A stretch of DNA of 64,000 nucleotides from Tubiluchus corallicola (Eukaryota > Priapulida > Priapulimorpha > Priapulimorphida > Tubiluchidae): the NCBI GenBank assembly GCA_030141605.1, contig JAQGDQ010000014.1, forward strand, positions 186,001 through 250,000, read 5' to 3'. The notes under the pieces are model-generated. The model saw nothing but the letters and a program-made list of their open reading frames with translations. It searched no databases and was not told where the DNA came from. Shown here in pieces: positions 9,101 through 49,663 of the stretch (position 1 is the first letter of the stretch; every line of letters begins with the position of its first letter). A program made the translations under genes and the position numbers.

Positions 9101-11540
9101 GCATGTTTATGAAACCTATATATTACCTGAACAAGGACTACTATACACAGGACGTGCACGCTCAGATTTCTGATTCCGCCAGCGGAGGCGATCTATACTT
9201 GTGTGAACGTAATCTAGAAATAGTGCGCTTTAGAGAGTAGTGATCTTGAAAATTAAAGAATGGGCGGATCGGTAGATAGCGAGTATTATTTTTCATTTAA
9301 TTGGTTCTTTACATTACGGGAGAAAAGTACCAATTGTTTATTTTATGTATCAAAGGAAATTAGTGTTCATTTTTACTTCTTAAATAGCGCACTACTTTAG
9401 GCGTAAGTGTGTTTTACCGGAAGTAGAGCTTTGTCATTGTGGGAAACTTGAAAGTCAAGTGAAGCGTTGTTTTCATGCTTGTGTTTGTTCTTTGAGGATT
9501 ATTTTCAAAATTTCTCGTGGATTTTATACATCTGTGCTCAGCAGCATGCCTAACAAGTGTGGTGTTGTTAAATGCAAAGGTAACTATGACACGGAGAACA
9601 AGTGTCGTGTGTTCAGACTGCCAAGAGATCATGTAGAAAAACAGAGATGGCTAAGTGTTCTTCCCCCACGCGAAGGCTTTGTTGTTGATCCAACGAAATT
9701 TTTCATTTGCAAAAAGCATTGGCCATCAGATACTCAAATGGTCAAAATTCCAGGTGATCACACCAGGCCAGTGGATCCACCCAGTATTTTCAACGTTCCA
9801 ACATCATGCTTGCCCACTCCAAAGCCACCACCTCGCCCTCCAAAAACTGAGGACCAGCAGCTGAATTATTTCTTTAAAAAGGATAAAATAACTTCTCTCA
9901 ATGAATTCACTCCTGAGAAAGACCTGCATAAGATGTATCAGAACCTCATTATATCTCGCACACAAGACAAATTTGTGTGCATGTTCATAGAAGAGGACCA
10001 CAGTCAATGTTATATGTCAATTATTGTTCACAATAAGCCTACCTTCTGTTCCCCTCTTACTCTGTATGCTTTCAAAAACGGGATCAGTGTGCCATTAAGT
10101 AAAATCCTCAGTCCGAACAATGGGCTGTCCTCTTCCTCACAATTTTTCGCGGTTGTGAATTCTGTTGTCAACCACATTCATCATGTTGATGATATTGTCA
10201 ACAAAGTGACAAAGTCTCTTGAACTTGAACTAGCTCAAAATCGAGAACAATCTCCTAGTGTTAATGCTAAAGCCAAGAAGCTCAAATTTCTAACACGACA
10301 GCTTCAACTATTATGTGATAAGACTTTCACAGTGTCTGATTATTGCTTTGCAATAGAGTCATTTCCCCATTGCAATTACGAACAACTGCGTGACTTTTTA
10401 GTGTCACCCAGCAAAAGAAAGCTGCAGTCAGTTATTTCATCGACAGATATTGACAAGGTGCTAGGTAGAACATTTCAGAAAGTAAAAAGCTCTGAGCAGA
10501 AACACAGTTTACAGGCAGTCAAGGGGGGCCGATGCATTCATGCAAGCTGGAGATGTCTGTTCAGCATTCAAGCAGAGACTGGCGTGTTTTTTTGCATCAT
10601 TCCTGGAGTTTGTGGACACAGACACATCATCCGAAATCCAGTTGCACACATGCAATGGGATTGATTTCGAGGATGCGAAAATTATGGAGATTTGTGTTGA
10701 CGAGACTCTTTCCAAAACTGAACTGAACGCGTGTGCATATGTCGCAGGTTGGTTGGAGAGTAAGTGCCAAAATGACATTTCTTTTCCCGAGGATGAGCCT
10801 CTCCTTTCTGAGGAAATAAAAATGTTCATTGAAGAAGTGTCTAGGGGAGGTCTTACAGTGCCCCACACATTCACGTTCGAATTCGTAACAACTGGCTTAC
10901 GTTTTGTGAAGAAGTCAACTCACACAGTCTGCTGCTGCAACAAGCTCATGAACATCCTCTCCATAATCAATGCCTACTTTGATTTTGGAGAATTTTCAAG
11001 AAATGCTCTGAGATGCCTGGCGAATGTACTGCTGCATGGACTACACAATTTGGAGAAGGATCACCAGCAGAACTCAGCCCTTTACCAGACCTCCATTAAG
11101 AAGGCGCGACTAGCCGACTAATTGTCGCAAACATCTCTGCAAAATGGTGAGTGCAATAATTTCATGTATTCTAATTTACACAGAGGAACCTATGAATGAG
11201 TTTATATAGTCCTGACAAAATGGTGCAGTCTGTTTATTCTCTATAGAAAGTGACAGGTAATCATCGGGACACAATGAGTTGCAGATATGGTGTGTTTTTT
11301 TGGGAGGGGGGGATATCATAGGTACCACTGTTTTTAAATTACTAGATGAATGAGGAATATGTTCTATGTGTATTGTGGCATGCTATAGGTCACCATGGGG
11401 GGTAAATATGTCCAAATTATTAGCACTGAATGTTAAAAATTGATCGCCTCCGCTAGCCGAATCAGAGTCCTGTTGTATAGTAGTCCTTGTACCTGAAGTA
11501 AAATGTGAATTTGTTTAGCTACCTAACTAGCCACTTGCGG

Positions 11541-11601
<61 letters not shown>

Positions 11602-14600
11602 TACACATATATATACATATATGACTGTCAAGTCAGGAAAACAAATAACTTACATTTCTACAGTAGTTGCCATGGTATCCATCTGCACAAGAACAAAAAA
11701 TGCCCACATTGTCATTGAAGCATGTTCCTCCATTCTCACATAAATTTTCCTCACAGGTGGACCACATGTACGTGCAATTTTTACCGTAGTATGGTTCTGG
11801 ACACATACAATGGTATTCCCCGCCTAAAGAAAAATCAAGAAAGTTCGTGAAAAATTTGAAACACTCAAAAATCTTTCAGTCAGTTATTGTCAGATTCTCT
11901 AAATTTTCCATATGTAATCAAATTATGAAATAAACAAATTTTTGCATATACAGAAATTAAAAACAAACAATCAAAGCATTCACCATTGCTGTAACAGTGT
12001 CCTCCATGCATGCAAGGCTTTAATGAACATAGATCTATCCGGAAGTTGCAAGAAAATCCAGTGTAGCCATGTAGGCATTCACACCTGAAACTTTCTGCAC
12101 CCAGATCATGGCAGGTTCCATTGTTATGGCATGGAGAACTGTGGCAAGGCAACAAGATTTCATCGCACATATCACCTGTGAACCCAGGCTCACAGTCACA
12201 GACGAATGACACGTTGTCCTGCAGGAGACATTCTCCATGTTTGCAAGGATTCGCCTTACATGGTGAAGTGTAAATTTCACAAAATTGGCCATGAAAGTAG
12301 GTTGCACATTCGCACTCAGCAACGTTCCCAACATTATAACAAGTCCCTCCATTCTGACAGCTGGTGTTCATAATGTCACACGGCTGAATTTCAGTCTCGC
12401 AGAGCAGTCCTGTGAAATTGGCTCTGCAAGTGCACGTGAAAGTACTGTTAACATTCATGCAAGTTCCATTGTTCTGGCAAGGTGAACTGTCGCACTGCGC
12501 AATTCTTTTTTCACAGATTAAGCCCTCGTAGTCGCTGCCACAGATGCAGTTGAACATGCCAATTTGATCGATGCAAATGCCTCCGTTAAGGCAGGGGTTT
12601 GGTTCACAGACTAGCACGTCCTCACACGTGCGTCCAGTGAATCCAATTGTGCACAAACATAAGAAGTTGTCATCCTCCTCAACACAAGTACCATCATTGC
12701 GACATGGAAACCCGCTACAAGGTGTGACAGACGCACTGCAGTTTTCTCCAGTATACATGGCATCACACAGGCAAGTATAGTTGTGCCCCTCCGGCACACA
12801 TTTGCCATTAACACACAGATGATCCTCGCACACATAAATATCACAAAATCTGCCTTTAAAACCTGGTTCACAGTCGCAGAATGCAGTTCCATTAAAAATC
12901 GAACATTTTCCATTTTTACAAATTTCACAAGTAGGCAATAGCGTATAGCATTTTTCACCCGTATAATTACCAAAGCATTCACATGAAGTTACATTATCAC
13001 GCAAAATGCATTTTCCATAACCACAGTCAACATTGTTGCAGAGCATAGTGTTGTTTTGTGGTATGGGACTGCCATCCTCACAATTACTTCTATTGCAGCT
13101 AGTCGACATAGCTAAAGATGTCTCGCAATTTGTACCCGTATAATTTCCGTAACAGATACAAATATTTTCTTTACAGATACCATGAATTACAGTTTCACAA
13201 GTTTTACCAGTATGCCCTGCAAGGCACACACAATGAGAATTTTTGCAAACTCCATTAATACAAAGTTCAGAACAGCCAATTACAGTCTTAGTTGCATTTT
13301 GAAATAGTAATTTATCTTTCAATGTCACTGATGATATAGTTATCATTGCTTTGCTGGTTGTTCCTACAGCTGTTGTTGGTGTCACAGTAGTGCTTTCCAA
13401 TGGAGACACTCCAAGTGTCTCTCCAACTGTTGTTAGTGTACTTCTAAATGATGTTACCCTTAAAAAAGTTGGGGTTGACACAGGTAAAACTGTATTTTTC
13501 GATAATGGTTTTTCTAAAGGCTTAGGTGAAACAGGGGTAAATACTGTTGATGCCATTTCTTCACTGCATGTTTTGCCAGTGAATCCTACATCACAAGCAC
13601 AAACTGATTTAGATTCAGAACAAATGCCATGTACACACATGCCCGGAGCGCATTCAAGGTCCAATACAATTGATCTATTACAATATGAGGGATTAAGACA
13701 GACACACATGTAAAAAGACTCATTTAAGTTTAGACAAGTTCCTTCAAGACACGGATCATAACGACACGGAAGTTCAGTCTCACACAGCAACCCTGAAAAG
13801 TTCTCATCGCAAGCACAATGGAATGTTATAACGGAAGCAATGCATGTTCCATTGTTTTTACAAGGGTTATCCTCACAAATAGATGAAAGAGCATTACAGT
13901 TTTTTCCTTTGTAACCAGGAGGACACACACAAACGTAATCATCGAGTCCCTCATAACAAGTTCCTAGTCCACACGGTTGGGAAGAACAATAGAGAAATCG
14001 CTGACACAAGGAACCTGTAAAGCCATTTGCACATATACAAGAATATCTGCCACCATTTTCCATACAGGTCCCATTATTGAAACAAGGTTGGTCCCCGCAT
14101 GGCCGAGAACTACGATTTCTTACATGCTCGCATAAATAACCGGTAAAGTATTCTGGACAAATGCACTGAAACAAGCCATTAATTTCCTGGCACGTACCAT
14201 TGTTTTGACAGCGTAAATTTTCACAGGTGTTGAGCTTTTCACAGTGAAGCCCAAAATATTTATCTCGGCAAATGCAAAAAAATGTGCCGTCCATTTCAAT
14301 ACAAGTACCTCCATTTTTGCAAGTGCTGTCTTTGCAAGACAACCCCACCTCACAATTCTTGCCAGTAAAATGAGCAGCACAGACACACTTGTAGCTTTCC
14401 GCATTTTCTACACATGTTCCATTGTTTAGACACACATTTGGGGAACACATTTTTTCATTTTCACAAAACCGACCAGAAAATCCAGGCAAACACTTACAGT
14501 AAAATGAATTTTCCAAGTTTGTGCATGTAGCATTATTTTGGCACAAACTAGTTGCACACCAGTTTGGAACCTCACAAAACATTCCGGTGTAATTTTCCTC

Positions 14601-17600
14601 GCAGAGACAGATGAAAGAAGTACTTGTTTTTAGACAAGTACTATTATGTCTACACGGGTTTGAAATACATGGAGAAGGAATAGAACAATCTACACCTGAA
14701 TAGTCATTGTGGCAAATACATTTATATGGATTTCCTTGCACGCACGTTCCATGATCTCCACACGGATCATTTAAACATGGATGTTTCTTCTCACAGTTCT
14801 TGCCAAAATAATAATTTGAGCAAATGCACCTGTATCGATTTCCTTGATTAACACAAAAACCACCATTTTTGCAAAGCGACTGACTACAAGGTTGTCGAGT
14901 TGTGCAACGTTTGCCAGCATATCGGTTTCTACAAATGCAATGAAATGAGTTTTGCATCTCTAAACACTGGCCCCCATTTCTACAGGGATTTTTCGCACAT
15001 GCTGTGTCAAATTCACACGACTTTCCAGTCTTGCCGGGTGGGCAATAGCAACTATAATCTGTGCCAATAGAATGGCACGTGCCAGTGTTGCACGGATTGT
15101 CAAGACAAGTATCCCTAAATTGACAATGTGTTCCTGAAAAATGAGCATTGCAAATACAATTGTAGTTATCTCCATCTGCAATGCACACACCATTATTCAA
15201 ACAAGGACTACGAAAACAAGGATGCTGATGCTCGCACTGCACACCAGTAAAACCATCATCACACAGACAATAGAAAGAATCGAAACCTTCAAAGCAACTT
15301 CCACCATTTAGACACGGTTCAGAAAGACAACTTATAGGTGTTTCGCAAAGCTGTCCAGTCCATCCTGCATTGCATCGGCAAATGTATTCAACAAATGTTG
15401 AAATACTCAACTGTATACAATCACCGTGGATACAAGGACTACTTGAACAAGGTTCTGACGTCTCACAGTTTTCTCCAAATTTACCTTCTGTACAAATGCA
15501 GATATGTCGATCAGCAACATCTACACACGTGCCATCGTTTCTACAAGGATTTCTTATACATGGTTTCTGTGTTCCACATGTTTGCCCCATGTACGTTTCT
15601 GGACATAAACAAGTAAATGTATCCTCACTTTCCAAACAAACCCCTGCATTCTGGCAAGGATAACTAGAACAAAAAGTCTGTGTTTCACATCTTCTACCAG
15701 TAAAGCCATCTGAACAAATGCACACAAAACCGTTTAAAATATTCACACACAAACCTTTATTGAAACAAGGTGACCCACTGCAGGGCAGTTCCGATTCACA
15801 ATTTAATCCAGTAAATCCGGCAGTGCAAATACATATGGCCTCTGCACCATAGTTAACACAGGTTGCATCATTTTTGCATGGATAAGAAAGACATGGGTTA
15901 AGTATGTCACAGTCTTTTCCTATATAGTTACTTGTACACTTGCAAACGTAACTGTTTTGTGAATTCAAACAAGTTCCACCATTCAGGCAAGGGCGTCTTG
16001 AACAAGGTTTTCTAACCGCACAATTTTTGCCAAAATAGTCACTTGCACATAAACAGCGATACGCACTTCCGTCTTTTATACATGTTCCTCCATTTAAACA
16101 TGGACTGTTTACACATCGATGGAGAACATTACAAGTTTTACCCAAATAATATTCTGGGCAAAAACAAACAGCAGTCTCACCAAGATTAATACACTGTCCA
16201 CCATTCTCACAGATTAGGTCATGACATGGTAATACAGACTCGCAGTTTCTTCCTGTATATGTGCTAGGACAAGCACATACATAGTCATTATTAGCATCAA
16301 TGCAGCTGCCACCATTTAAACAGGGAAAACTTGTGCAAGACATTTTCACACCACAGTTCACACCAGTATACCCAGGAGTGCATAAACATGCAAACTCTTT
16401 GGAGTCAACATTCACGCATGTTCCTTCATTTTGGCATACCTGCAATGAGCAAGGAAAATGATTTCTGCACTGTGTGCCCGTAAAATCAGAAGGACACACA
16501 CAAATAAAGCTACCGAGTGTATCAAAACATGTCCCTCCATTCTCGCACGAATTATGTTGACATAGTAATTCAGTATCGCAATGTGGTCCAGTGAAACCCT
16601 TAGTGCAAATACAGTGATAATCGTCTCCAATATTAACACACTTTGCCCCATTTCTACATTTCTGGTCGGCACAAGGGAGTTTAACATCACAAAGTTGTCC
16701 AGAATAACCAGGTGGACAAATACAAGAAGCTATATTGTTAGTTTCCAAGCAAGTGCTTTCTCCATAACACTGTAATGTTGCACAAGACATTGAAGCAATC
16801 TCACAATTAGTACCACTGAAACCAGGTGAACAAATGCACTGGTAATCGTCACCTGTGTTCAGGCAAGTTCCAGAGTTTTGACATGGATGACTGAGACAGT
16901 AATTTGTAGCTTCGCAGTGACTGCCTGTCCATTTCTGCTGACAAATGCATTGGTAGGAATTATTCTTTAAGTTTTCAATACACAAACCATCATTTTGACA
17001 AGGACGATTATGACACAACACTGCCAAAGTCTCACAGTTTTTACCAGTGTACTGTTCGAAACAATTGCAAACATAATCATCCAACATGTTGGGATTATTT
17101 CTCATTTCTACACAAACTCCACCATTTAAACATGGAGAACTAACACACGCTTTTCTGTATTGGCAATTCTTACCAAAGTACTCATTTTTACATATGCACT
17201 TGTACGTAGTTTTGTCAATGTCAATGCACACACCATAATTTTTACAAGGCGACAAATCACATGACTTTTCAACAAAAGTTGTACAAGTTTCATCCAATTC
17301 ATCACTGTGGCATAAACATTCAAATTCTTCACCAGGAATTGTATCAACACATGTTGCTAAGCTAGGACATGGATTCTGAGAACACAACAGTCTTGACTCA
17401 CAAAACTGCCCTGTGAAATGCAACGGACATTGACATAAAAAACTGTTCAATCCCTGAATCATACATGTACCATTATTTAAGCAATAGCTATCACTGCAAG
17501 AGGTTTCATTAAGGCACATTTCATCCTTACACGTGCTTAAGTGAATTTCACACAACTTTCCTGAAAACCCAGCCTTGCATACACAAGCATACATCTTCCT

Positions 17601-20600
17601 GTCATTGCTAAGAAGGCAAGTTGCATTGTTATGACAAACATTGTTGTCACATGGCATTGTATCTACACACAGAGAAGCATTCATACACAAACAAGTAAAT
17701 GTATCTCCTGCATGAATACATTGTTGACTTGTTGAACACGGTGATGATGCACACGGATTAAAGCCTTCACAGTTCCTTCCTGGATGGGTCAACGGACAGG
17801 TGCAATGATAAGTATTGCCAAGTTCAGTACACATACCTGCAAATTGTACAAAACAATGTAAAAAGGATAACGCTGTAGATAAATTAGTAAAGTATTTGTT
17901 TCTTCTCATTTAAGTTATATTTTCTCTTAGCGATAGAAAGTAATAGACAATATTTAGAAAATATGTAGATGAATTTATCGCCTGCAAGTGAAGAGCATTC
18001 TTTAAACTTATATATGCAATACAAATATATATATATACATATATATATATATAAATTCAAAATACCTAATGTGTCTTTTATAATGTTTAATTTTGCATTT
18101 ATTGTTATGTGCACGTATAGTGTTATTTAATATTAACTACTCCTATATAATGTTTAACATGTAAATGGCAAAACCTCCAAGATGGCTTGTAATCATCTCT
18201 GCTATGTGATAACATTTTGTACCCATATGTGTCAGATGCTAACAAATGTAACATCAATTATACGAATTTTCCCAGTTCACAACAATATTTGCACAACAAC
18301 AGCTACTACCTCCATTAATGCAAGGTGATTCCAAGCAACTGATAACAGGTTCTTCGCAATTTTTTCCCCCATAGGCAGAATTGCAAAAGCATTTGTATTG
18401 ACCAATAGGAATGTCAGCCGGACAAAAGAAACGACCTTTTCTACAACAAAACCCTGTTTAAAAATATAATTGTTTATTGCATGTGTAAAATTAAAACAAG
18501 CCAAAGCAGTACACTTGCAAAATTGAACTTATAATATATAATTTGCTAAATTAAGTGAAAAACAAATTTATTATTAAGCATAAAAGCCAAAACAATAATT
18601 TAGGTACAAATGAGCACTACTGACATGTAAAATTTGTAAAATGACTATAAATGTCAGTCCATTAAGAAAAAAGTAACGTATAATTAATTACCTTCATTTT
18701 GGCAAGGATTTGGTTCACATGGATCGATCAACGTCTTGCATTTAGCTCCAGTATAACCAAAATCACAGTGGCAAAAATAACCATCTATTCCGTCGATGCA
18801 TATACCTAAAATCAACATTATTCTAAAAAATGCGTGCTCAGTTATTTTACTTGAATAATACACTAACAAGCATTGTGATTATGACAACAAAATCTCAACT
18901 ACAGTATTTTGTAAACAGACTTACTGGTTTAAACCAGTGTTGCAGGTTTAAAAATTAAAAACATCAATATTACTCAATAAATTTTGTGCAGTAATAAACA
19001 TTACTCAATAAATTAGCAAGAATAGTTACTACTATTAAAGAGGAATTTGAGAATTGATTAAATCTTGAATTACTGTCATTTAAAACTTAATTTTAAAGTT
19101 GAACATGACCACGTGAATATAACTTAGACATGTTTAAACATAATGACTTGAGACTTAGCAAGGACTTAGGCCGCAATGACTTGAGACTTGACTCGAACTT
19201 GAATCCCAAGGACTTGGGCTTGAGTTGAAAGACTTGACTACAAGACTGGCTGAAACATTTTCATACACATTAAAAACCAAGTTAACCATTTGTGCATGGA
19301 TTTTCCAAACAGTCATCTACATTTTGTTCACAGTGTTCTCCCGTAAATCCTGGTAGACAAACACAGACTTTCTGCGCACGTCTGACAGATGGCGGATAAC
19401 ATATTCCACCATTCTCACAAGGATCACCATCTAAAAATAAAAAAATAAAAATAAATTTTTATAATGGCACCAAAAATATAGTTTAATAAGCTCCAATAGC
19501 ACAGGATTGAAAAATGGAACAGTAAGTTACTAATTTATTGAAAAATATATAAGAGTTTTTCAACCAGAGTTTTTATAGATAAACCAAAACCTCAAGTGCA
19601 ATTCTAGACATACACATCTAGAAAATGTGTATCATAATAATGGCTTAAAATTTTTTAAATCTCATCTCCTATAATAAACTCCACAATACCTTCTGCAACC
19701 AGTATTCTGACAAATATGTTGTTTGAATTAAAAGTGATGAGGACATTTATTCGAAACGAATGCAAGCAACTTGCAGCTCTCACATACTTATGCTGCATAG
19801 CAAATGGAAAGTCTGTCGCCATCACCTGTACATTTCTGTATTCTATCACAGTTCTTCCCAGTCTGGTGTTTAGGACAGATACATCGATAGCCTAAAGTTG
19901 TACCAACACATGTTGCACTATTGTAGCAAGGATTTGAATCGCAGTTATTAGCTACCGTCTCACAAAATGCTCCTAAAAGCAGTAAAATGACAATCAGCTT
20001 TAAAGGAAAGGACACACCGTTTAGCAGGTTGGGTTTGTTTTGCTGCTGTCACTTAGACTTAGAAAAATATAACAAAGAAATCTGCAACAAAAACTGTCTG
20101 TAAAGCATAAAGATAATTTATACTGCCGTTTTGCATAAATTTTTTTGGTGCGGTGATAACCGCCATTCCCTTGAAAATTATGGCAAATATTGTGGACTTT
20201 GTGAACTTTTGTAAGCGCAAGCCACTTAACTAATTCAAACTTCTGCAGACTACCAGTTATCATAAACAGATGACAGACTATCATAAAATTAGTTTACTAA
20301 TTTTTTGTGTAAAATTTTTAAAAACTTTGTTGGAAATTGACAGGTGCTGCTTTTCTTCAGGTGACGAATGACATCATTGGTGAATGAATGGCATTCAAAA
20401 TGGGAGCGACCAAGCAGACCACACTTTTGTTTCTAAATCCTGACTAACATTTGTCTCACAAACATTGAAATAAGACAAAGTTCCAAGAAGACTTGCCATT
20501 TCCTTTAACTATTTCTAGACTGCAGTAAAATTCAAACTTACCTTATGTTCATACAAAAAGTATCATAAAATTAGTTTACTAATTTTTTGTGTAAAATTTT

Positions 20601-23600
20601 TAAAAACTTTGTTGGAAATTGACAGGTGCTGCTTTTCTTCAGGTGACGAATGACATCATTGGTGAATGAATGGCATTCAAAATGGGAGCGACCAAGCAGA
20701 CCACACTTTTGTTTCTAAATCCTGACTAACATTTGTCTCACAAACATTGAAATAAGACAAAGTTCCAAGAAGACTTGCCATTTCCTTTAACTATTTCTAG
20801 ACTTTGCTTAAGATTTGTTGAAAATATCTGCCTAACAGACATTTCAGCTAACGCCACACAAAAGTGCGCTTGTTTTCATGTTCGTGTTTCACACTTACCT
20901 GTAAAATCAATCATACAAGAGCACCTAAACCCGTTTTCAAGTTCCATGCACTTTCCGCCATTTTTACATGGATTGTTTTCACAAATAGCTCTTTTGAATT
21001 CACATTGTCTACCTAACAGGACATTCAAATTAAATTAATTCGGGTGTAAGATGAGACATACACAGTTCGTTTAAGTGATAAGACCTGACAATCAGTATTC
21101 TGCTACCTAAACAGTAGCGCTAGCACAATGATACAAATAAAACAAAATGCTTATATGAGATACATAATGGGCAAGGAAGAAATGCAAATTATCATGGACA
21201 CATTAATTAGGAGCTTTTTTGACAATTGATAATTATTGCTGCATTAAAAGAAAAAAATAATAATATTTAAGTAATTTCAATTGCTCACTGCTTTACCAAC
21301 ACATTAATTAATAAATAAAATTTCAGCAATACCCAATACAAAGCAAATCTGTGTTTAATAAAAACAAAAAATGTACCCGTAAACAGAACTGGGCAAATGC
21401 ATTTTCCCATTTCGCAAGTGCCACCATTTACACACCAGCAATTGGCAATTACTGTCTCACAATATATGCCAGTAAACCCCGGACGGCAACTGCAGTGAAA
21501 CCTATCATTTGAAAGTGCAGTACACACCCCGTTCTTGCATGGCTTCAGCAAACACTGTGGATGATCCGCTGCACTAGAAAATGTTAAGCACATGAATAAT
21601 TAGAACATGGAACTTCATTGCGCAAATGTAGAAAAACTTCTTAATTATACTATTTCTGAAACGCATAAATAATTGTTGAGTGGTTACTGTCCTCACTCTA
21701 CTTAGCAGGGATGTTATCTAAAATGAATTTACAAACCAAAATCTAAATTTATTAAACACAGAAAACCGATACTGAAACGAAACTGAACCAAAGCATTTTT
21801 ACAAAACCAACTAGTGCAAAAAGAAAAATCTAAAATAAGCAAAATGTATTGTTTTCTATTTGTTTGCTTTTATTTGCTGTGATGCAAAATCACTGATAAA
21901 AAATTTTAAAACGAAAAGGACAAGGAAGTTTTACAGAACAGAACCTCAAGCATGATGGAGTGGCTTACTTTAGAAAATGTGTTATGTTTTTGGATTTAGG
22001 TATCCTTAATGACTAACGTTTAAAGATCAAAATGCTTCATTAAAAAATAAACAAATTTAATTTTATAGATATTTTGTGGCCTATATTTCATAAATTACAA
22101 AATTAAATGCAATTTTGCTCAAGTAAATTCAGACGTGGTTTGATATTTCGGTTGATTGGGCCTGGAGACCCTAAACCTTCACACTTCACAGTCGTCAGCA
22201 CTGAAGATATGCCGTATTGTCGGTAAAAACACATCACAAACTGTTGTGCAAATGAAATTTCCTCTTTATTTGAACTAATTTAGCCAAGACTTTTCAGCGG
22301 TTTTTTACATCTAGGAAAAAGGAAAGAGTAAATTGGATAAATACTAGTAAAACATCGGAAAAACACCACCGAAAATTCTCCAAAACTGAAAATTTCATTT
22401 CAGTAACATCCCTGGTGCTTGGGGACTAACGTTAACCATGGCGGTCAGTTAATGCAACTTTCTTGATTCACGATTTCAGCAGTTTCATTGTCTATACTAG
22501 CTGAATGTCGGCCTATATACATCTACCATCATTTTAGAGGCATAGTCTTGATAATGAGTCAGGTTCCGGAGGCGCCAAAGTTATCTAAATCGAGCAGTAT
22601 CTGCCATTTAATGCTGGATTTCAACTTGCAGGATTTGGTATTGTATAAAAAAGAACATTGTAGAATAAAATCAAGATTATGATTATCAGGTGCAGTCATA
22701 AACTTAAGACAGCAATTATTAATTAACACACTGTCATATGCTAATGAGAGACAAATACACTCTAAGGCAAGTTAAGTTTTGCATTCAACAAGACTATTGA
22801 CCCTTACCTATATGGAAAACTATCATCTTCACTAAGTGGAATCCATATTAGGGATGCACTCCTTGAAATCACAGCATGTCTTGTCAGCCCATGAGTATTA
22901 ACATCAGTATCAAATGCAACTATAGAACCTTTTCTGTTTGGGATAAGAAGCAGATCTGTCTCTTTTGTACGGTTTATAGGCTCGATTACACTAGCACCAG
23001 TATCGCGTGGGACAGATGAATCACTTTCGAGTAACTCCTCAAGAGGTTTTACTTGCAATGAACTTGACACGGTGGAAACGTTTGTATCAACGAATGATTG
23101 TTTAACAAACATAGTACTTTCAGTAGCAAGGCTATATTTATAATTGGTTAAAATACTAAACTTAGTAGCAATGTCAATATTGCTCATGTTAGCAAAGCTA
23201 GAATTAGGAAATGTATATGAAGGAAACTGAGTATTAGATTGTGTGACAACAGAAGTCCTTGTTGTAGCTAAATCATAAGATGAAGCTAATTCATATGCTT
23301 TCGACGTTCTGTTAGCTATAGCATCAGTACTTCTTTTGTTGATTTTTACTGTTTTCTGATTTGTTATCATAGCCTCTGAAACTTTACCTGGCACTACAGA
23401 CACCGCTTGCTGTTCAATTTTCGTGAAATCAGGGCTTGTAGCACTTTCTTGCCAATGGTCTTCACCAGAGCTTGACTTGACTGTAACTTCATTTGAAACC
23501 GTTGTGCTTTGCCTCTTCCAAAACAATAAAATGTCCCTTAAAACATTTGCAATAGTTGACAAATCACTAGAAAATGAATGATCATTGTCGCTTAAATTTT

Positions 23601-35098: not shown

Positions 35099-36884
35099 TC
35101 ACACCACTCGACATGGTTGGCATTCGCATTTCACAATGTATCTGTACGTTGCGTAGACATTACTTCCATTGTCACAGTCAAGTCTGACGGCTTTCATCAC
35201 AGATAATCGATCTCTACACAATGTGCACGTGTATTTAAAGGGCTGTGTCAAAATAGGCTCGAACGTTACTTGTGGAGTTGCACTTGTCTTCTTGCAACTT
35301 CCTTCACATCTGGTCATCAGAACATTCTTGTAAAAAAAGAAAAGAAATTACTCTTTGGTTTATTCAGAAGAATTAGCGAGTAAACACTGCATAAAATGAC
35401 AATAATTTAGCTATCAGAAACGTTCAGTCTTGGCATAAAATAAATATACATGTAACATCAACAGTGTTTAGTGTTAGCTTGCACAATAAACATGACTTCT
35501 TATTACTAATACATTATATTACGCCTAATATGCGCCATTAATGTAATGATTACTACTGTCGATGTCGTTGTTGCTGTAGTTGCGCTGCTGCTGTTGCTCC
35601 TGCGACTGTTGCTGCCTGCTGCTACTGCTGATGTTGCAGTTATTACTGCTGTTGTTGTTGCTGCTATTGCTGATAATGAAAATGTATATTAAAGTCTTAC
35701 AGTAACTATGCAACTACAGCTACCTGCTACAGAATTTAACTAGGTGGACAAAGTAAATAAGTAAGTTTATTTTACGTCGATCTTCATTACTTATAAGGAA
35801 CATGTCCACAAGGGACTATTCAATGGACTAAAAATTATAACAACTACAAATTAAAACAGTAAATAAAGGCTTAATTAAGACTTACATCGGACATACATAG
35901 GCACTATAATATTGACAGCAATATTGCGCAAATGTTCTTTTAGTCATACACAATAGATGAATGAAATATTGCGCAATGGTCAATATTCAGCCTGCGTGTG
36001 CTCCCTAATACTGTTATCATAATACTGAATAAATACTGATCACACGTACTGTATGTCTTGCATATACGAAATAAAGAAATAACAATAACAATATTGATGA
36101 TGATGATGATGATGATGATGACGATGACGATGACGACGAGGACGACAACGACGATAATGTTGTGCAGGAAGAGGAGGAGGAGGGCAATAATGATTGCACC
36201 TACAGCTGCTGTTACTGCTCTTATTTATAGTGCTGCTTTTACTGGTATAGAGAAAGTGTACAGTGCCCTTGCATCTATTGTTTGAACTGAATATCGATCA
36301 AAATCTAGTAATAGGTGGTAGATTTATTTAAACAAAATAAATGCTGTTCAGCTCATATGGTTTAATATAGGTGCCTACTCAAAAATGCTATAGCTACATA
36401 GCCACAATTAGGGAATAAAGCAATAAAATGCATAGAACAACAATGTCTATTTTAGCTTTAGTTTAATACATATACCTTACATGTTATTCGTTGTTGTATG
36501 TTGAGTCCTTAAAAGAATTGTTGTAACTGTAAGTTATAAATAGTGCTACTGTTGTCTGTCAAATGAGCAATGGTAAAAAGTGTTGTTTTTGTCTTTTTAG
36601 CAAACATAAACGGTGTGCGGTATTTGCCACTGCTCAGCAGTTACAATCTAATTTTACCTTACGAGTGCAGTTAAGATGAGGATGAGCAATCGTTTCTACA
36701 ATGTAATGCTTTTGACAAGATCGTCTTGACTCAGCTCTTCCAATTTCTAGCAATGCTGCCCATAGAGTAATCAGCAACCAAGGATTGATAGGCAGTCGAC
36801 TCAACTTACTCTGGAAAACAACAACAACAACACAAACATTATAATAAACTACAAACAAGGACAATTTCTTACCTTTACTAACAT
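35099..36884 (-). CDS. Small secreted cystine-knot protein, glycoprotein-hormone/bursicon/DAN-like (three exons)
   Basis: Exons are 36884-36873, 36810-36658 and 35326-35099, all phase 0, with donors GTAAGA and GTAAAA and acceptors TTTTCCAG and TTTACAAG. The product is 130 residues. Residues about 1-30 are a signal peptide with hydrophobic core WLLITLWAALL and likely cleavage after GRA. Ten Cys follow at 36, 52, 62, 66, 89, 92, 106, 122, 124 and 127. C62-E-G-S-C66 and C122-E-C124 are the C-x-G-x-C and C-x-C ring motifs of a growth-factor cystine knot. C-x9-C-x3-C, C-x13-C, C-x15-C and C-x-C-x2-C spacings resemble GPA2-type and bursicon-type subunits. Sequons are at N51 and N108. The usual C-x-C-C has Leu in place of the middle Cys. 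It probably acts as a secreted ligand. The subfamily is undecided and expression is not shown. Confidence 0.78.
35559..35680. repeat. Imperfect CTG/TTG trinucleotide tract
   Basis: Mixed GTT, GCT and CTG units over about 120 bp in the second intron of the cystine-knot gene. Confidence 0.8.
36095..36155. repeat. (GAT)n(GAC)n microsatellite
   Basis: GAT repeats grade into GAC repeats inside the second intron of the cystine-knot gene. Confidence 0.85.
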
Positions 36885-39489: not shown

Positions 39490-41330
39490 GCCCTGCATAA
39501 TAAATTATCTCAAAAAGTATCCTCTGACACATGAGCACAATCAAACAACAAATGTAAAGGTGTTTGTAATTGTCCGCAGAGACATAAGCCACTTGGAAGC
39601 AAACCTATATGATGAAGGAAAGATTTAAAAAAGCCCTGACCGTGTATAAAACTGAGGGCTGTTGTCTCCAAGGCTCTATTGATAGCAGCAACAGATAAGA
39701 AAATAGGGTATCTGGAACAATGTGAAACAAATCATATGTACCATTTATAGTTACATACATATTAAATTTTCAGTGCCATACCGACTTTTTACACATGTTT
39801 ACGGTTTCCTTTTTGTTCGGAATGTCAGCGGATAAAACATGATTGATGTTTTTACGTCGCTCATTATTAACAATCTGTAAGTATTCTTGGCATTTGTGTT
39901 GTACTTTCAACTTCCAAAGGGGGTAAGACGCGCAATAGCTCTAATAGCTCTCTACAGGGTTTGAAAGCAGCCCCTACAGCAGTTTTGACAACATCATATT
40001 GTATAGCGTCGAAAAATGAATGTTTCTTAAACATCCAAGCTGTCGATCCACACAGAATAATTGGTAACACGAAAGTTCTATACAGTTGTACAGTAGAGGC
40101 CATCCGTAACCCCTTATGTTTCCAACAAACAGTCCGTATTTTATTCCACGTGCACCAGGCAGATTTTCTGACTTTATTAACATGACGTTTAAAATCTAAT
40201 TTTTTATCAATAGCAACTTCCAGCACTGTGCTGTGTTCAACATATTCAACTTCAGCTTCACGAATTTTCAGTTTGGGAATGTCATCTTCATTTAGAAGAA
40301 GAATTTATAACAATAGCTTCAGTTTTATTTTTATTACAATTTATTTGTAAACGCCATTTTATACACCAATTACACAAATGAGTGTAGCACAGTTGTGCTG
40401 ATTTATGGCATTGTTGGAGACTGTTGCTAGACACATAAAAGGTTCCATCGTCAGCATATTTAAAAATTTCAGGACCCCTGGCGCTGCATTCATCTCCAAG
40501 CATTTCTGAGACGAAAATAAGGAACAACAAAGGCGAAAGAACAGACCCTTGTGGTAGTCCCATTTTGACGCCGTGTGAGGGTGACGTGTAATGTATATAA
40601 TATAATATAAAGTGACGTCACTTTTATATTAAATGTTCGAATAGAGAGGAAGGTTTTTTAAGCCTAAGAAACAGCCTCTAATTCCAAACTGGTGCAATTT
40701 ATACGTAAGTCCATTTATCCAAACGCTGTCAAAAGAGTTTTTCTAAATCGCAAAAGACAGCGAGACCAGCGGTTTTTCGTAACATGTTTTCCTGTATGAT
40801 ACTTACTAGATGAAAACTATATCGACCAGGATTACGATTAGGGATGTCACCTTCTTGGACACTATCCAGCAAATTAAATTCTTGACACTTATCAAACAAA
40901 CGATTTACCAAAAGTCCTTCCATTAATTTACCAACGAAGGAAGACAATGTAATCGGACGGTAAGAATTTGGGTTAGAATAGTCGTCTTTATTTTGTTTTC
41001 GAATAGTTTTTGATACCGACCATGGCAATATGTTGGTTTTTAAACAAATTGTGCTCAAATTTAAGACTAGAGATCTCGCCCAATGCCCGAAATGTTTTAT
41101 CATACACGGATGAATGCCATCCTGATCAACACTTTTGCCTGAAGCTTGCGTATGTTTAATTGCATTATGAAGTTTAGACATGGTGACTGTCCTGTCCAGA
41201 CTGTTTACACCAGAGTCGGGAAAATTAGATGCATTACAGAAATGATCCACCTGCGTTTTCCACTCATCATCTAAAAACTCGTTATCCAGGTGAGAGCCGG
41301 TAAAAAGCTTTCATACAACAGGGAACTCTT
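39490..41330 (-). pseudogene. LINE (Jockey/CR1-like) reverse transcriptase pseudogene
   Basis: Several minus-strand frames join as one broken pol. From 41250 down: SYRPITLSSFVGKLME (RT motif 1), then FCDLEKLFDSVWINGL crossing a frameshift near 40738 (first catalytic region). At 40563 MGLPQGSVLSPLLF and KYADDGTF give the second motif and the YADD box. Next is a thumb-like segment (VAIDKKLDFKRHVNKV, WNKIRTVC). Further down, in another frame, CLCGQLQTPLHLLFDC resembles the C-terminal Cys/His motif of such LINEs. At least three shifts or stops and a deletion between the first two RT motifs make it inactive. No endonuclease domain is seen upstream, so it is 5'-truncated. Confidence 0.82.
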
Positions 41331-46010: not shown

Positions 46011-47678
46011 TTAATCTACTTGTGATATGAACAGCGGACTCATAAGACAGCGTTTGTAAGGAGGTCTGCCTGTATGTGGTCTTGTCAGTGGATCGTTTAG
46101 TGTCGCGTTGAATGTTCCCTGTAACACAGTGTCTTTCACTGTTTTAGGCAAATGGTAATGTCCAGGGCCTGGGGTATCATCATACTTGCATACAAATCTT
46201 TCAGTTTTGACTGGCATTAGATTCCGATCAGAAAAAGCTGATTTGGTAACATACTGTCCAGGTCCCGGATTATTAGGGTCGGCTATCTGCACCAGGTTAT
46301 TGGGAACTCTTGAGAATCTGGTATCGGAAGAAAGAAAGACACCACGTGACTTCTTCCCAGGACGTGGCTCCTGCTTACCCTGCGTTCTGTCGTGTGAATC
46401 AGCTTTGTTATAAAAGTTTGGCCCCGGTACAACATCCTTATCCGATGGTACAAACCTTCTCGTTTTTGAAGTAAACACATGTGTAACTTTCTTTACTTCT
46501 TTCTCAAGCTTTTCTGCTACGTTGTATGCATTTGCTGCTGGTAGACTTTGTTGATACTTTGTAGCATAAGCAATTTTGCGTTTGGCCTGCGAACCGAAAC
46601 CGCCTTTTTGCAATGAACCTTGTTTTAAAGCCTGCTTAACACATTTGTCTGCAAAGCCAGGCGGATTGAAATAAGTTGGTTCTGGCATGAGATATCTTAC
46701 ACGTGGAAATCGGACAGCAGTGTGTCCAAAAGGGCATCTCACGTTGTAATGAGGTGCACTTGTTGAGGTAAAGGAATTTTCCGTTAAGTGATAGTCACAA
46801 GGAGCCGGAGAAAACTCCACTTGAGTTTCGAAACGCTGAGCTTTGGCTCCAAAAGACGGAAATGCTTCTTTTTCGCGAATCTGCTGAAGTACATCATCAA
46901 ACTGGCCGCTGATTTTGTACTGATTTGGTGCAGGCACAGATTTTTTTATTTCTGCAGTGGATACAATTTCGTGATACCTGGGCAGATGAGATCGTGATAT
47001 GGTCAAACCGTTTTTGGCGCTTTCCCAGTCTGTGGGCTCTTTAACGTCATACTGTCCAGGTCCGGGACCTAATTGACCTTTGAAAGTCATCCGTTTTCCC
47101 GTCAGTTTAGAGAAAAAGACGCCTTTGTATTTTGATGGACGAAAGTCTCGGGCGTCATAAAAAGCTGGACCTAGTGTATGATCTCCAGTTGGTTCTTCTA
47201 CTCTATGTAAGTTACCATCCAAGTCCTCCTGGAAACCAGCTGCCTGTAGTGAAGGAATTGCTGGCGGTTGACTTTCAACTATCACTACCGGACGAGGTTT
47301 GAGCGAACCTTTTTGTTTTTTAGTCTTCGGAGCGTTCCTACCATCTTCGTCTCCCCAAGCGCTTGTCACGTGATAACTCCCTGGACCAGGTGAAGTAATC
47401 GTCCGTTGTCCTTTCAATCGACGCTCCGTGCGGGGCATACTGCAGGCTCCCTTCAGCTTATCTTGCTTCTGCTTAGGGAAGTACGTAGCTGGTCCTGGCG
47501 AAACTTCTTCATTTATTAGCGAAAATTCTCTTGGGGCCATTTTTTCAAAAGGTGCATATGCTGTTGATCTGCAGTTCCAATGTCTGCAAAATTTGGGATA
47601 GTAGTCAGCAGGACTTAGATTCGGGTCTGTGCTTCCAATTTCTTGTAGACACAGTTCTCGCTTTGATCTGTTGTACAT
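46011..47678 (-). CDS. STPG2-like sperm-tail PG-rich repeat protein, single exon
   Basis: An intact 555-residue frame starting at ATG 47678. It carries at least six Pro-Gly motifs of the SHIPPO/STPG class: SPGPATYFP, SPGPGSYHV, GPGPGQYDV, VPGPNFYNK, NPGPGQYVTKSAF and TPGPGHYHLP, with further decayed copies (APNQYKI, SPAPCDYHL). The N-terminus (MYNRSKREL, EIGSTDPNLSPADYYP, APFEKMAPRE) follows the layout I recall for STPG2, whose human form is somewhat shorter. Proteins of this family are axonemal/microtubule-associated components of cilia and sperm tails. There is no signal peptide or membrane segment. The coding sequence has no intron here, although vertebrate orthologues have many. A CAG|GT-type junction just upstream of the ATG could be a 5' UTR splice site. 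STPG1 or another SHIPPO paralogue is the alternative. Confidence 0.85.
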   Translation of the reverse strand: MYNRSKRELCLQEIGSTDPNLSPADYYPKFCRHWNCRSTAYAPFEKMAPREFSLINEEVSPGPATYFPKQKQDKLKGACSMPRTERRLKGQRTITSPGPGSYHVTSAWGDEDGRNAPKTKKQKGSLKPRPVVIVESQPPAIPSLQAAGFQEDLDGNLHRVEEPTGDHTLGPAFYDARDFRPSKYKGVFFSKLTGKRMTFKGQLGPGPGQYDVKEPTDWESAKNGLTISRSHLPRYHEIVSTAEIKKSVPAPNQYKISGQFDDVLQQIREKEAFPSFGAKAQRFETQVEFSPAPCDYHLTENSFTSTSAPHYNVRCPFGHTAVRFPRVRYLMPEPTYFNPPGFADKCVKQALKQGSLQKGGFGSQAKRKIAYATKYQQSLPAANAYNVAEKLEKEVKKVTHVFTSKTRRFVPSDKDVVPGPNFYNKADSHDRTQGKQEPRPGKKSRGVFLSSDTRFSRVPNNLVQIADPNNPGPGQYVTKSAFSDRNLMPVKTERFVCKYDDTPGPGHYHLPKTVKDTVLQGTFNATLNDPLTRPHTGRPPYKRCLMSPLFISQVD

Positions 47679-49663
47679 ATCGCTTTGTTACCTGTTGTAC
47701 AAAACTATAAACACACTAATATAAAGCTAATCAAGTTAGCGATTCCAATTTATGACATTCATCTGTGCTTCGATGTGTTAAAAATTATAAAAAAGTAACA
47801 AATTCATCGTCGTATAGTATCACTCAGGGCAAAAACAACGAGCCAGTACATTCGTGTCTGAAACTTAACCTAGTCTGCCACTTACGTCATTATAATAATA
47901 ATAATTAAGAAACAATTGCCATGACGAAGCTGACGCCATAAACAACAAAGATTTGTGTTGCTAGATTATAGATTACCAACTTTAGAGTTTTTCTAGGTCT
48001 GAACAGTCGACATAATACTGAATGTTATTTAGTTATAGAAATCGTTCTACCGCTTATATGCAAGCAAATTTGAATGTCGGTGTTTCGACAGTATAAGTCT
48101 GCATCTTACAAAACTAAAACGCTAAATGTAAACCTTCTCAACACATAGTATAGCTACGTATGCTCGAATATAGGTGCGTATGTTTTTTAATGTGTTTTGT
48201 GTTACTTCTGTTTGATAAGACGAAAAAATTGTTTCGTGTTTAAGCTGATTTTGAATTTGGCTCTGTCATGTTTTGTTCCAAGTCCTTATAGATTGGGAGC
48301 ACAGAGAGAGGTTTAATGCGAAACTCGAGCATAAAAGGCTTAAATAGCTAAACAAAATGGCCAAGTTTCAAAAACATGTTGTCTTGTATTGTGCAACAGT
48401 CATCAGATGTCAAAGGTCACGTAGATTCAGCCAAAAAAGAACCATTTAATTCAAAATTTGAGCACAAGGAAAATTTTTGTGGCAGCGAGTGGAGTGTGGC
48501 TAGTAGTGCTTAGATTTATGCTCAAGATAAAAAAATACCAGTCATAAGCAGACACAAGACATACTGGGCCGTTAGCCAATGGTCACTATTTCACCTATAT
48601 TAGAGCACAAGAAAAATTTTTGCGGGAGTTTTCAATACTTGCCTAGTGCATGCTAAATTTATACTTTTTGAAAGACAACCAAACATCATGGTTCTTTTCT
48701 GGCAGCTTGAGGCAGTTTGTAAGCTTTACCTTTCTTGCTAAGATGATGTTACATCTTAACTCGTGAAAGCAAGGAAAATGGGTAGTGTTGATACAACGTT
48801 GCCTAAAAAATTTGCAACAGCAGATATGTTGACGAATCTTCTTTGGTGTTTTTCCCTACTGCCCACATCCATCCACAATGTAGATTTTGCTGATATGATA
48901 GAAAAAAATCACTGCTGTATGGCAGAGTTTACATGTTGATGCAGATATGTATGTTGAATGTAAGATATCAATTTGTCTTGGAGATACCGATATAGCAGGC
49001 CTTCCTTATCATGCTAGCAAAATCGCTTTCACAGTGTGGATGGATGGGTGAGTACTGGAAACAGAAGACACGTATATAAATATATCTAATGTTGCAACTT
49101 CTTTAAAAAAATTGTTTGGGACTTGTCAATGAATTTGCTTGTGACAGTAATGAAAATTGTGTAAGAAACGTTTTAATTAACCATGTAAAAATTGGGACAG
49201 TTAATTAAACCAGTGTTCTTGTTATTCGCAAGTTTTCTTTTTGACCGTTCCACTATTTCAATATTCAATTGCAGACTAGATATTCACGAAATTTCCATCA
49301 AAAATACTGGTACGCTGCTATAACCTTACCACTCGTTACCCTACTTGAACTTATTTCACGGACTACTAACAAGATGCATTCATAGATAGTTTGCATAATA
49401 GTGAGACATAATGATTTTGATGGTAAACCTTCCCTTTACTGTACTTGCATTTTCTGATACCTGAATCGCAATTGGCTTTATAGTTTAGGAGTTGACAGAG
49501 ATTTGTATTACATTTCTAAAATACGATTTGTAAAAAGGTTTGAATGATGGAATCTAATCATGTATTAGTCACCTCAAGTTTTCAAAATGATGCCATAAAT
49601 AAGAAACGCCTCCTAAAATTATCAAATCAAATAAATTTAAATCATATTTTCAATGTACTAATT

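Follow-up and report, generated by a model that had tools for sequence, protein, structure and literature searches.

A probable norrin gene without a counterpart of Cys95, accompanied by Frizzled-4 in an invertebrate genome

Introduction

Human norrin (NDP) is the Norrie-disease protein and signals through Frizzled-4 (Fz4). It has been studied functionally in vertebrates, in which it serves the vessels of the retina, the ear, and the brain, and the neighbourhood of the vertebrate NDP gene contains the monoamine oxidase (MAO) genes. According to excerpts of a structural report on norrin (PMC4497409), strands β1–β2 and β5–β6 contact the CRD of Fz4, and Asp46 of norrin forms a salt bridge with Lys109 of the receptor. 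The same excerpts place a glycosaminoglycan site at Lys58, Arg107, Arg109, and Arg115, and a putative LRP5/6 patch at Lys54, Arg90, Arg97, Gly112, and Arg121. The two chains of the dimer are linked by Cys93–Cys95′, Cys95–Cys93′, and Cys131–Cys131′, and signalling is lost upon Cys-to-Ala exchange at the inter-chain bonds or upon changes of the dimer interface (PMC4497409, excerpts). In an excerpt of a further report, the C93A/C95A/C131A variant of norrin is a monomer (PMC11695057).

Other cystine-knot proteins utilize different disulfide plans. In the case of NBL1, five intrachain disulfides are described and the dimer is formed without disulfides (PMC7473711, excerpt). A 2014 survey assigns to NDP the Cys pattern of bursicon, while gremlin and NBL1 are listed there without the seventh conserved Cys (PMC4079206, excerpt). 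The survey's excerpt also contains a probable coral norrin orthologue, and echinoderm BLAST matches to norrin appear in an excerpt of another report (PMC9590158); for the liver fluke Fasciola, the relevant passage of a published report states that norrin was not found. The existence of norrin outside vertebrates is hence already known and is not itself new. Among the matches listed in the open-licence literature, none treats the function of norrin in an invertebrate (titles and abstract starts), and none describes a naturally occurring norrin that lacks Cys95. Here, we describe a gene that is probably the norrin of the animal by descent, encoding a putative secreted cystine-knot ligand of Fz4 without the counterpart of Cys95.

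Gene Structure and Predicted Protein

The window, namely the whole analyzed stretch of 64,000 nucleotides, is located on contig C147 of a eukaryotic assembly comprising 343.5 Mb. Splicing of the window letters confirms a three-exon gene model on the minus strand between positions 36884 and 35099 (Table 1), at the place given by an earlier note that had named no strand. All exons are in phase 0, both introns begin with GT and end with AG, and the predicted product is 130 residues long, in agreement with that note. The tiny first exon proposed there is likewise recovered as a predicted stretch of four codons (MLVK), which fits a start exon: a stop codon lies in frame upstream of its ATG, and exon 2 contains no Met ahead of the knot, so that an upstream exon is needed. 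At the other end, the stop codon of the gene follows three residues past the last Cys.

Table 1. Coordinates of the parts of the norrin-like gene in the window and of the Frizzled-4 gene in the same genome.
Feature	Position	Strand	Description
Exon 1, coding part (predicted)	36873..36884	-	ATG TTA GTA AAG = MLVK; phase 0; donor GTAAGA
Intron 1	36811..36872	-	62 nt; GT...AG; T-rich 3′ end
Exon 2	36658..36810	-	51 codons; core of the putative signal peptide, Cys36, Cys52, sequon N51; last residue Lys55
Intron 2	35327..36657	-	1331 nt; GT...AG; imperfect trinucleotide repeats (by eye)
Exon 3	35099..35326	-	75 codons + stop; CEGSC, CTLC, C106, CECQPC, sequon N108
Codons C89-T90-L91-C92	35216..35227	-	TGC ACA TTG TGT; Leu replaces norrin Cys95
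L007, Frizzled-4 by sequence	G000:C716:898248-902153		one open frame, 621 codons

The spliced product contains ten Cys (36, 52, 62, 66, 89, 92, 106, 122, 124, and 127) and two sequons (N51 and N108), the numbers that had been claimed for it. The N-terminus resembles a signal peptide, as had also been claimed: hydrophobicity peaks at about residues 16–25 and is followed by GRA/ES, a possible cleavage site picked by eye, and secretion is graded as probable. In a Pfam scan of the protein, the Cys_knot profile, which the earlier note had suggested as a check, is narrowly passed with 26.3 bits over a cut-off of 24. NCBIfam, a prokaryote library, gives zero matches for the protein. The Cys-spacing pattern occurs once in the window and in none of 100 shuffled windows; the pattern was derived afterwards from the protein itself and the bases were simply shuffled, which makes this a weak control. 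A single-sequence structure prediction of exon 3 alone reaches a mean pLDDT of 39.3, too low to judge the knot. A genome profile search with PF00007 yields nothing, including at the norrin locus, so its genome-wide silence means little.

Norrin Identity by Descent

Among all PDB chain sequences, the best match of the protein is norrin (E 3.3e-25, 91.7 bits), with 43 of 96 aligned residues identical. The matches up to E 10 comprise nine distinct sequences: six of norrin, one of mucin-2 (E 5e-4, 23.1 bits), and two of VWF (E 0.29 and 0.78). The C-terminal CK domains of mucin-2 and VWF are thus the next-best matches after norrin, but they score at least about 69 bits lower, and the candidate stands alone as a short protein. 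Chains of gremlin, NBL1, sclerostin, and bursicon, although present among the searched PDB chains, give no match up to E 10. Exon 3 alone retrieves norrin at E 2.2e-18; exon 2 alone retrieves it weakly (E 0.38), with all four matches being norrin and aligned up to the exon boundary. The norrin and Frizzled-4 chains of the PDB are assumed to be human, as species are absent from the match listings.

In the reverse direction, PDB norrin searched against the genome gives two first-look candidates and a single match, which is exon 3 (E 3.2e-17). Norrin is therefore both the best and the reciprocal best match, with PDB chains on one side and the animal's own genome on the other. The protein itself, searched against the genome, gives five candidates and three matches, of which two are its own gene. 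The third, L003 (E 8.6), was considered as a second copy and rejected as a chance match, since inspection by eye suggests a Walker-A ATPase on the opposite strand. One norrin copy was found in the genome. Furthermore, the candidate scores 100 bits to norrin and the four other knot proteins of the genome at most 27; measured from norrin, the values are again 100 for the candidate and at most 27 for those four. In a tree of six sequences, with the knot stretches picked by eye, the candidate pairs with norrin at a local support of 0.87.

The gene structure agrees with this assignment. In human NDP, a splice-donor variant c.174+1 is described, and the next AUG is codon 59 (PMC9412000, excerpt); as 174 is three times 58, the human intron lies after codon 58 in phase 0. 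Norrin Lys58 aligns with Lys55, the last codon of exon 2, and the exon 2/3 boundary thereby falls at the same codon and in the same phase as the human intron. None of the 33 listed genome matches to amine oxidase, a set in which MAO is not told apart, lies on contig C147, so the vertebrate-like linkage is absent; the MAO neighbourhood is not a defining feature of norrin outside vertebrates.

Compared with norrin (PDB 5bpu and 8wvx), the candidate shares the 43/96 identities, ten of eleven Cys, the phase-0 intron after the Lys58 codon, a short N-terminus that is mostly signal-peptide-like, and Fz4 in the same genome. It differs in the exchange of Cys95 for Leu, in the sequons within the putative LRP5/6 patch, in Asp and Asn at the positions of R109 and R115, and in a spacing from CEGSC to CTLC that is one residue shorter.

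Loss of Cys95 and Dimer Chemistry

In the alignment, all eight Cys of the cystine-knot domain of norrin (39, 55, 65, 69, 96, 110, 126, and 128) are present. Among the inter-chain Cys, 93 and 131 are present and 95 is replaced by Leu91. The Leu at the middle Cys of C-x-C-C, pointed out in the earlier note, is thus real (CTLC) and most plausibly reflects the loss of the Cys95 of norrin. Its codon, TTG, is two changes away from either Cys codon, and a one-base error does not account for it. Owing to this replacement, the claim made here is limited to orthology by descent and does not extend to full membership by disulfide chemistry. Without Cys95, the inter-chain Cys93–Cys95′ bonds cannot form. 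That these bonds are easily replaced is made less likely by the signalling loss of Cys-to-Ala norrin (PMC4497409) and by the monomeric state of the C93A/C95A/C131A variant (PMC11695057).

The order of the ten Cys, C..C..CxGxC..CxxC..C..CxCxxC, matches that of NBL1. By analogy with the NBL1 pattern, Cys89 and Cys127 may be bonded within the chain; alternatively, Cys127–Cys127′ and Cys89–Cys89′ bonds may form across the dimer. A possible, though rather doubtful, arrangement is a norrin built on the disulfide plan of NBL1/DAN, in which Cys89–Cys127 would be intrachain, the dimer non-covalent, and the glycans positioned over the LRP5/6 face. With this gene as the only invertebrate norrin in the comparison, the loss of Cys95 could be confined to this species or shared by a large group.

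Receptor-Binding Surface

At the nine norrin sites known from Fz4-binding mutants, three residues are identical (V45, L61, and K104), two are conservative (R41K and D46E), and four are changed (R38S, H43Y, A63T, and K102V). The counterpart of Asp46 is Glu43, and its salt-bridge partner, Lys109, is retained in the animal's Fz4. From these residues, binding of the candidate to Fz4 appears likely. In the heparin site, K58 and R107 are kept and the other two of the four residues are lost (R109D and R115N); simultaneously, two Fz4 residues that share the glycosaminoglycan site are changed in the animal's receptor (His154 to Gln, Asn155 to Asp). Heparin binding would thus be reduced or moved, to judge from the residues involved.

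In the putative LRP5/6 patch, R97 and R121 are kept (two of five), R90K is conservative, and the positions of K54 and G112 are taken by the Asn of the two sequons. Contact with LRP5/6, as read from this patch, is doubtful. Engineered glycans near the places of the sequons (L52N/K54S and M114N/L116S) left the Fz4 binding of norrin unimpaired (PMC4497409, excerpt). The loss of Cys95 together with the sequons in the putative LRP5/6 patch suggests a probable ligand of Fz4 whose dimer chemistry is altered.

Frizzled and LRP Genes in the Same Genome

A Frizzled search of the genome gives nine matches: four are genes with long open frames, and the other five are pieces located on a single contig, C32. 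Among PDB chains, the CRD of L007 matches Frizzled-4 with 201 bits and Frizzled-10 with 146 bits; 87 of 118 residues are identical to PDB Frizzled-4, and Lys109 is kept. By sequence, L007 is identified as Frizzled-4. L005 and L006 are long single frames as well, and the frame of L004 begins within the CRD, which implies a further exon; these three genes are named by eye only.

On contig C969, a fragment resembles LRP6. Its best single stretch scores 103.8 bits to LRP6, whereas the highest of 20 LRP4 stretches reaches 54.5 bits. By whole-chain score, LRP4 comes first (239 and 234 bits in two runs), because phmmer sums the repeated propellers.

Relationship to the DAN Family and Bursicon

The protein had been likened to GPA2, bursicon, and DAN-family subunits, a kinship that the searches do not bear out. 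Pfam DAN (PF03045) is absent among its Pfam matches up to E 10, and the DAN-profile search of the genome finds four other places (L043–L046) without the norrin gene. Among these, L043 is gremlin and L045 is of sclerostin type by PDB search, and L044 is a gremlin-like partial frame with 46% identity to L043 over 72 residues. L046 appears bursicon-like by eye and keeps C-K-C-C; among PDB chains it matches NBL1 best, with 21 bits, and bursicon chains are absent from its matches up to E 1. Since none of the four is recognized as NBL1, the NBL1 place may be empty in this genome.

NBL1/DAN (PDB 4x1j) shares with the candidate the same order of ten Cys; it differs in that the candidate gives no NBL1 match up to E 10 and Pfam DAN stays silent. 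In the case of bursicon and GPA2/GPB5, the general cystine knot and the form of a small secreted subunit are shared. However, bursicon and the glycoprotein hormones carry C-x-C-C, whereas CTLC is found here, and no such chain appears among the PDB matches; furthermore, the separate bursicon-like gene L046 keeps C-x-C-C in the same genome.

Alternative Explanations

A norrin by descent could now act mainly in the manner of NBL1 or gremlin, with Cys89–Cys127 intrachain, a non-covalent dimer, and binding of BMP-type ligands instead of Fz4 or in addition to it. The ten Cys in NBL1 order point in this direction, as do the five intramolecular bonds and non-disulfide dimer of NBL1 itself (PMC7473711), both sequons in the putative LRP5/6 patch, the NBL1 place that may be empty after the four DAN matches, and a report excerpt that describes binding and inhibition of BMP4 by Xenopus norrin (PMC3308935). 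We consider this shift of function unlikely, because the sequence outside the Cys is norrin-like and not DAN-like, the genome encodes an Fz4 that retains the Lys109 contact, the Cys131 that joins the human chains still has its counterpart, and DAN proteins are already supplied by gremlin, the gremlin-like partial frame, and the sclerostin-type gene.

That the locus is a norrin copy in decay or without expression, or that the gene model is wrong and the true first exon lies elsewhere, would suit a model built from sequence alone with an exon 1 of four codons, and also the loss of Cys95 and of two heparin-site residues; nevertheless, the open frames, the GT...AG ends, the intact knot Cys, the stop codon closely following the last Cys, and the status of sole norrin copy found in the genome render it very unlikely. 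The proposal of the earlier note, in which the protein is an as yet unassigned hormone with a cystine knot from the GPA2/bursicon or DAN groups, draws on the common Cys spacing, the short N-terminus, and the passed Cys_knot profile. It is scarcely credible in view of the reciprocal norrin match, which contradicts it, the lack of any such PDB chain up to E 10 and of a DAN profile match, and the separate bursicon-like gene with C-K-C-C, named by eye. The description of an unusual cystine-knot ligand accordingly stands as regards probable secretion, the tiny exon 1, and the odd Cys set, but not as regards hormone kinship; nor is the suggestion of a lineage-specific ligand supported.

Other Features of the Window and the Genome

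On the minus strand at 11880–17909, an open frame of 2009 residues carries tandem EGF repeats, with 18 and 22 EGF stretches in two scanned parts; on the same strand, the places at 19.8, 21.3, and 25.3 kb carry further EGF along with a weak match resembling LDLa that stays below cut-off. An open frame at 46011–47687 (minus) with sperm-tail PG-rich (SHIPPO) repeats (E 1.8e-14) likely encodes a ciliary or flagellar protein. A THAP zinc-finger match at 9384–10664 (plus) is barely above cut-off (E 6.3e-5) and belongs perhaps to a P-element-like transposon, and reverse transcriptase pieces in several frames at 39867–41310 (minus; RVT_1, best E 6e-12) probably represent a non-LTR element. Between 60167 and 63762 lies a GC-rich tandem satellite with periods of 62–272 bp, which raises GC to 0.51, the remaining 4-kb bins ranging from 0.32 to 0.41. 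At 20279–20803, a 282-bp unit occurs 1.9 times with 100% matches and is either a very recent duplication or an assembly artefact.

Pairs of matches with identical scores occur on contigs C1776/C2120, C205/C528, C1292/C2279, and C1338/C1677; the assembly seems to retain some allelic copies, and the norrin gene showed one only. A homeodomain search of the genome gives at least 118 matches (186 first-look candidates, 150 of them scored). Two long open frames, L034 on G000:C1789 (2118 residues) and G000:C1925:306718-309168 (1933 residues), contain four homeodomain matches each and are presumably ZFHX-like. Among 25 of 30 fetched homeodomain loci, Hox1, Hox2, and Hox3 on one contig, Hox4, a posterior Hox gene, and three central Hox genes on one contig were recognized by eye; one central gene carries what we take to be a Ubx/Lox2/Lox4-like peptide. 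This reading by eye is suggestive of a protostome, most likely a lophotrochozoan. A COX1 match is absent from the assembly.

Proposed Mechanism and Implications

Direct support exists for the gene structure, the orthology in sequence, the Cys set, and the occurrence of Fz4 and an LRP6-like fragment in the genome. Points against the norrin reading are the partial conservation of its functional surface, the weak match of exon 2 alone, the whole-chain lead of LRP4, the missing amine-oxidase linkage, and the signalling loss of human norrin upon exchange of the inter-chain Cys or changes of the dimer interface. With norrin by descent as the preferred reading, the protein would probably be secreted by means of its signal peptide. 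Its knot would consist of a ring of Cys62/Cys66 and Cys122/Cys124 threaded by Cys36–Cys92, with a Cys52–Cys106 bond joining the fingers; these pairings are assumed by analogy with norrin. The secreted protein would most likely serve as a short-range ligand of the Frizzled-4 of the same genome, and such a ligand would feed the Wnt/β-catenin pathway together with LRP5/6. Should the NBL1/DAN disulfide plan prove true, the protein would bind Fz4 in another oligomeric state, and its output might change as well, for example to Fz4 occupancy or BMP antagonism instead of β-catenin activation.

The retention of norrin and Fz4 together in an invertebrate would mean that the pair predates the vertebrate vessel tissues and had an older task. 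If the absence of Cys95 is general in the lineage, it would provide a natural experiment on the need of covalent dimerization for Fz4 signalling, and norrin and the DAN-type BMP antagonists would stand closer together.
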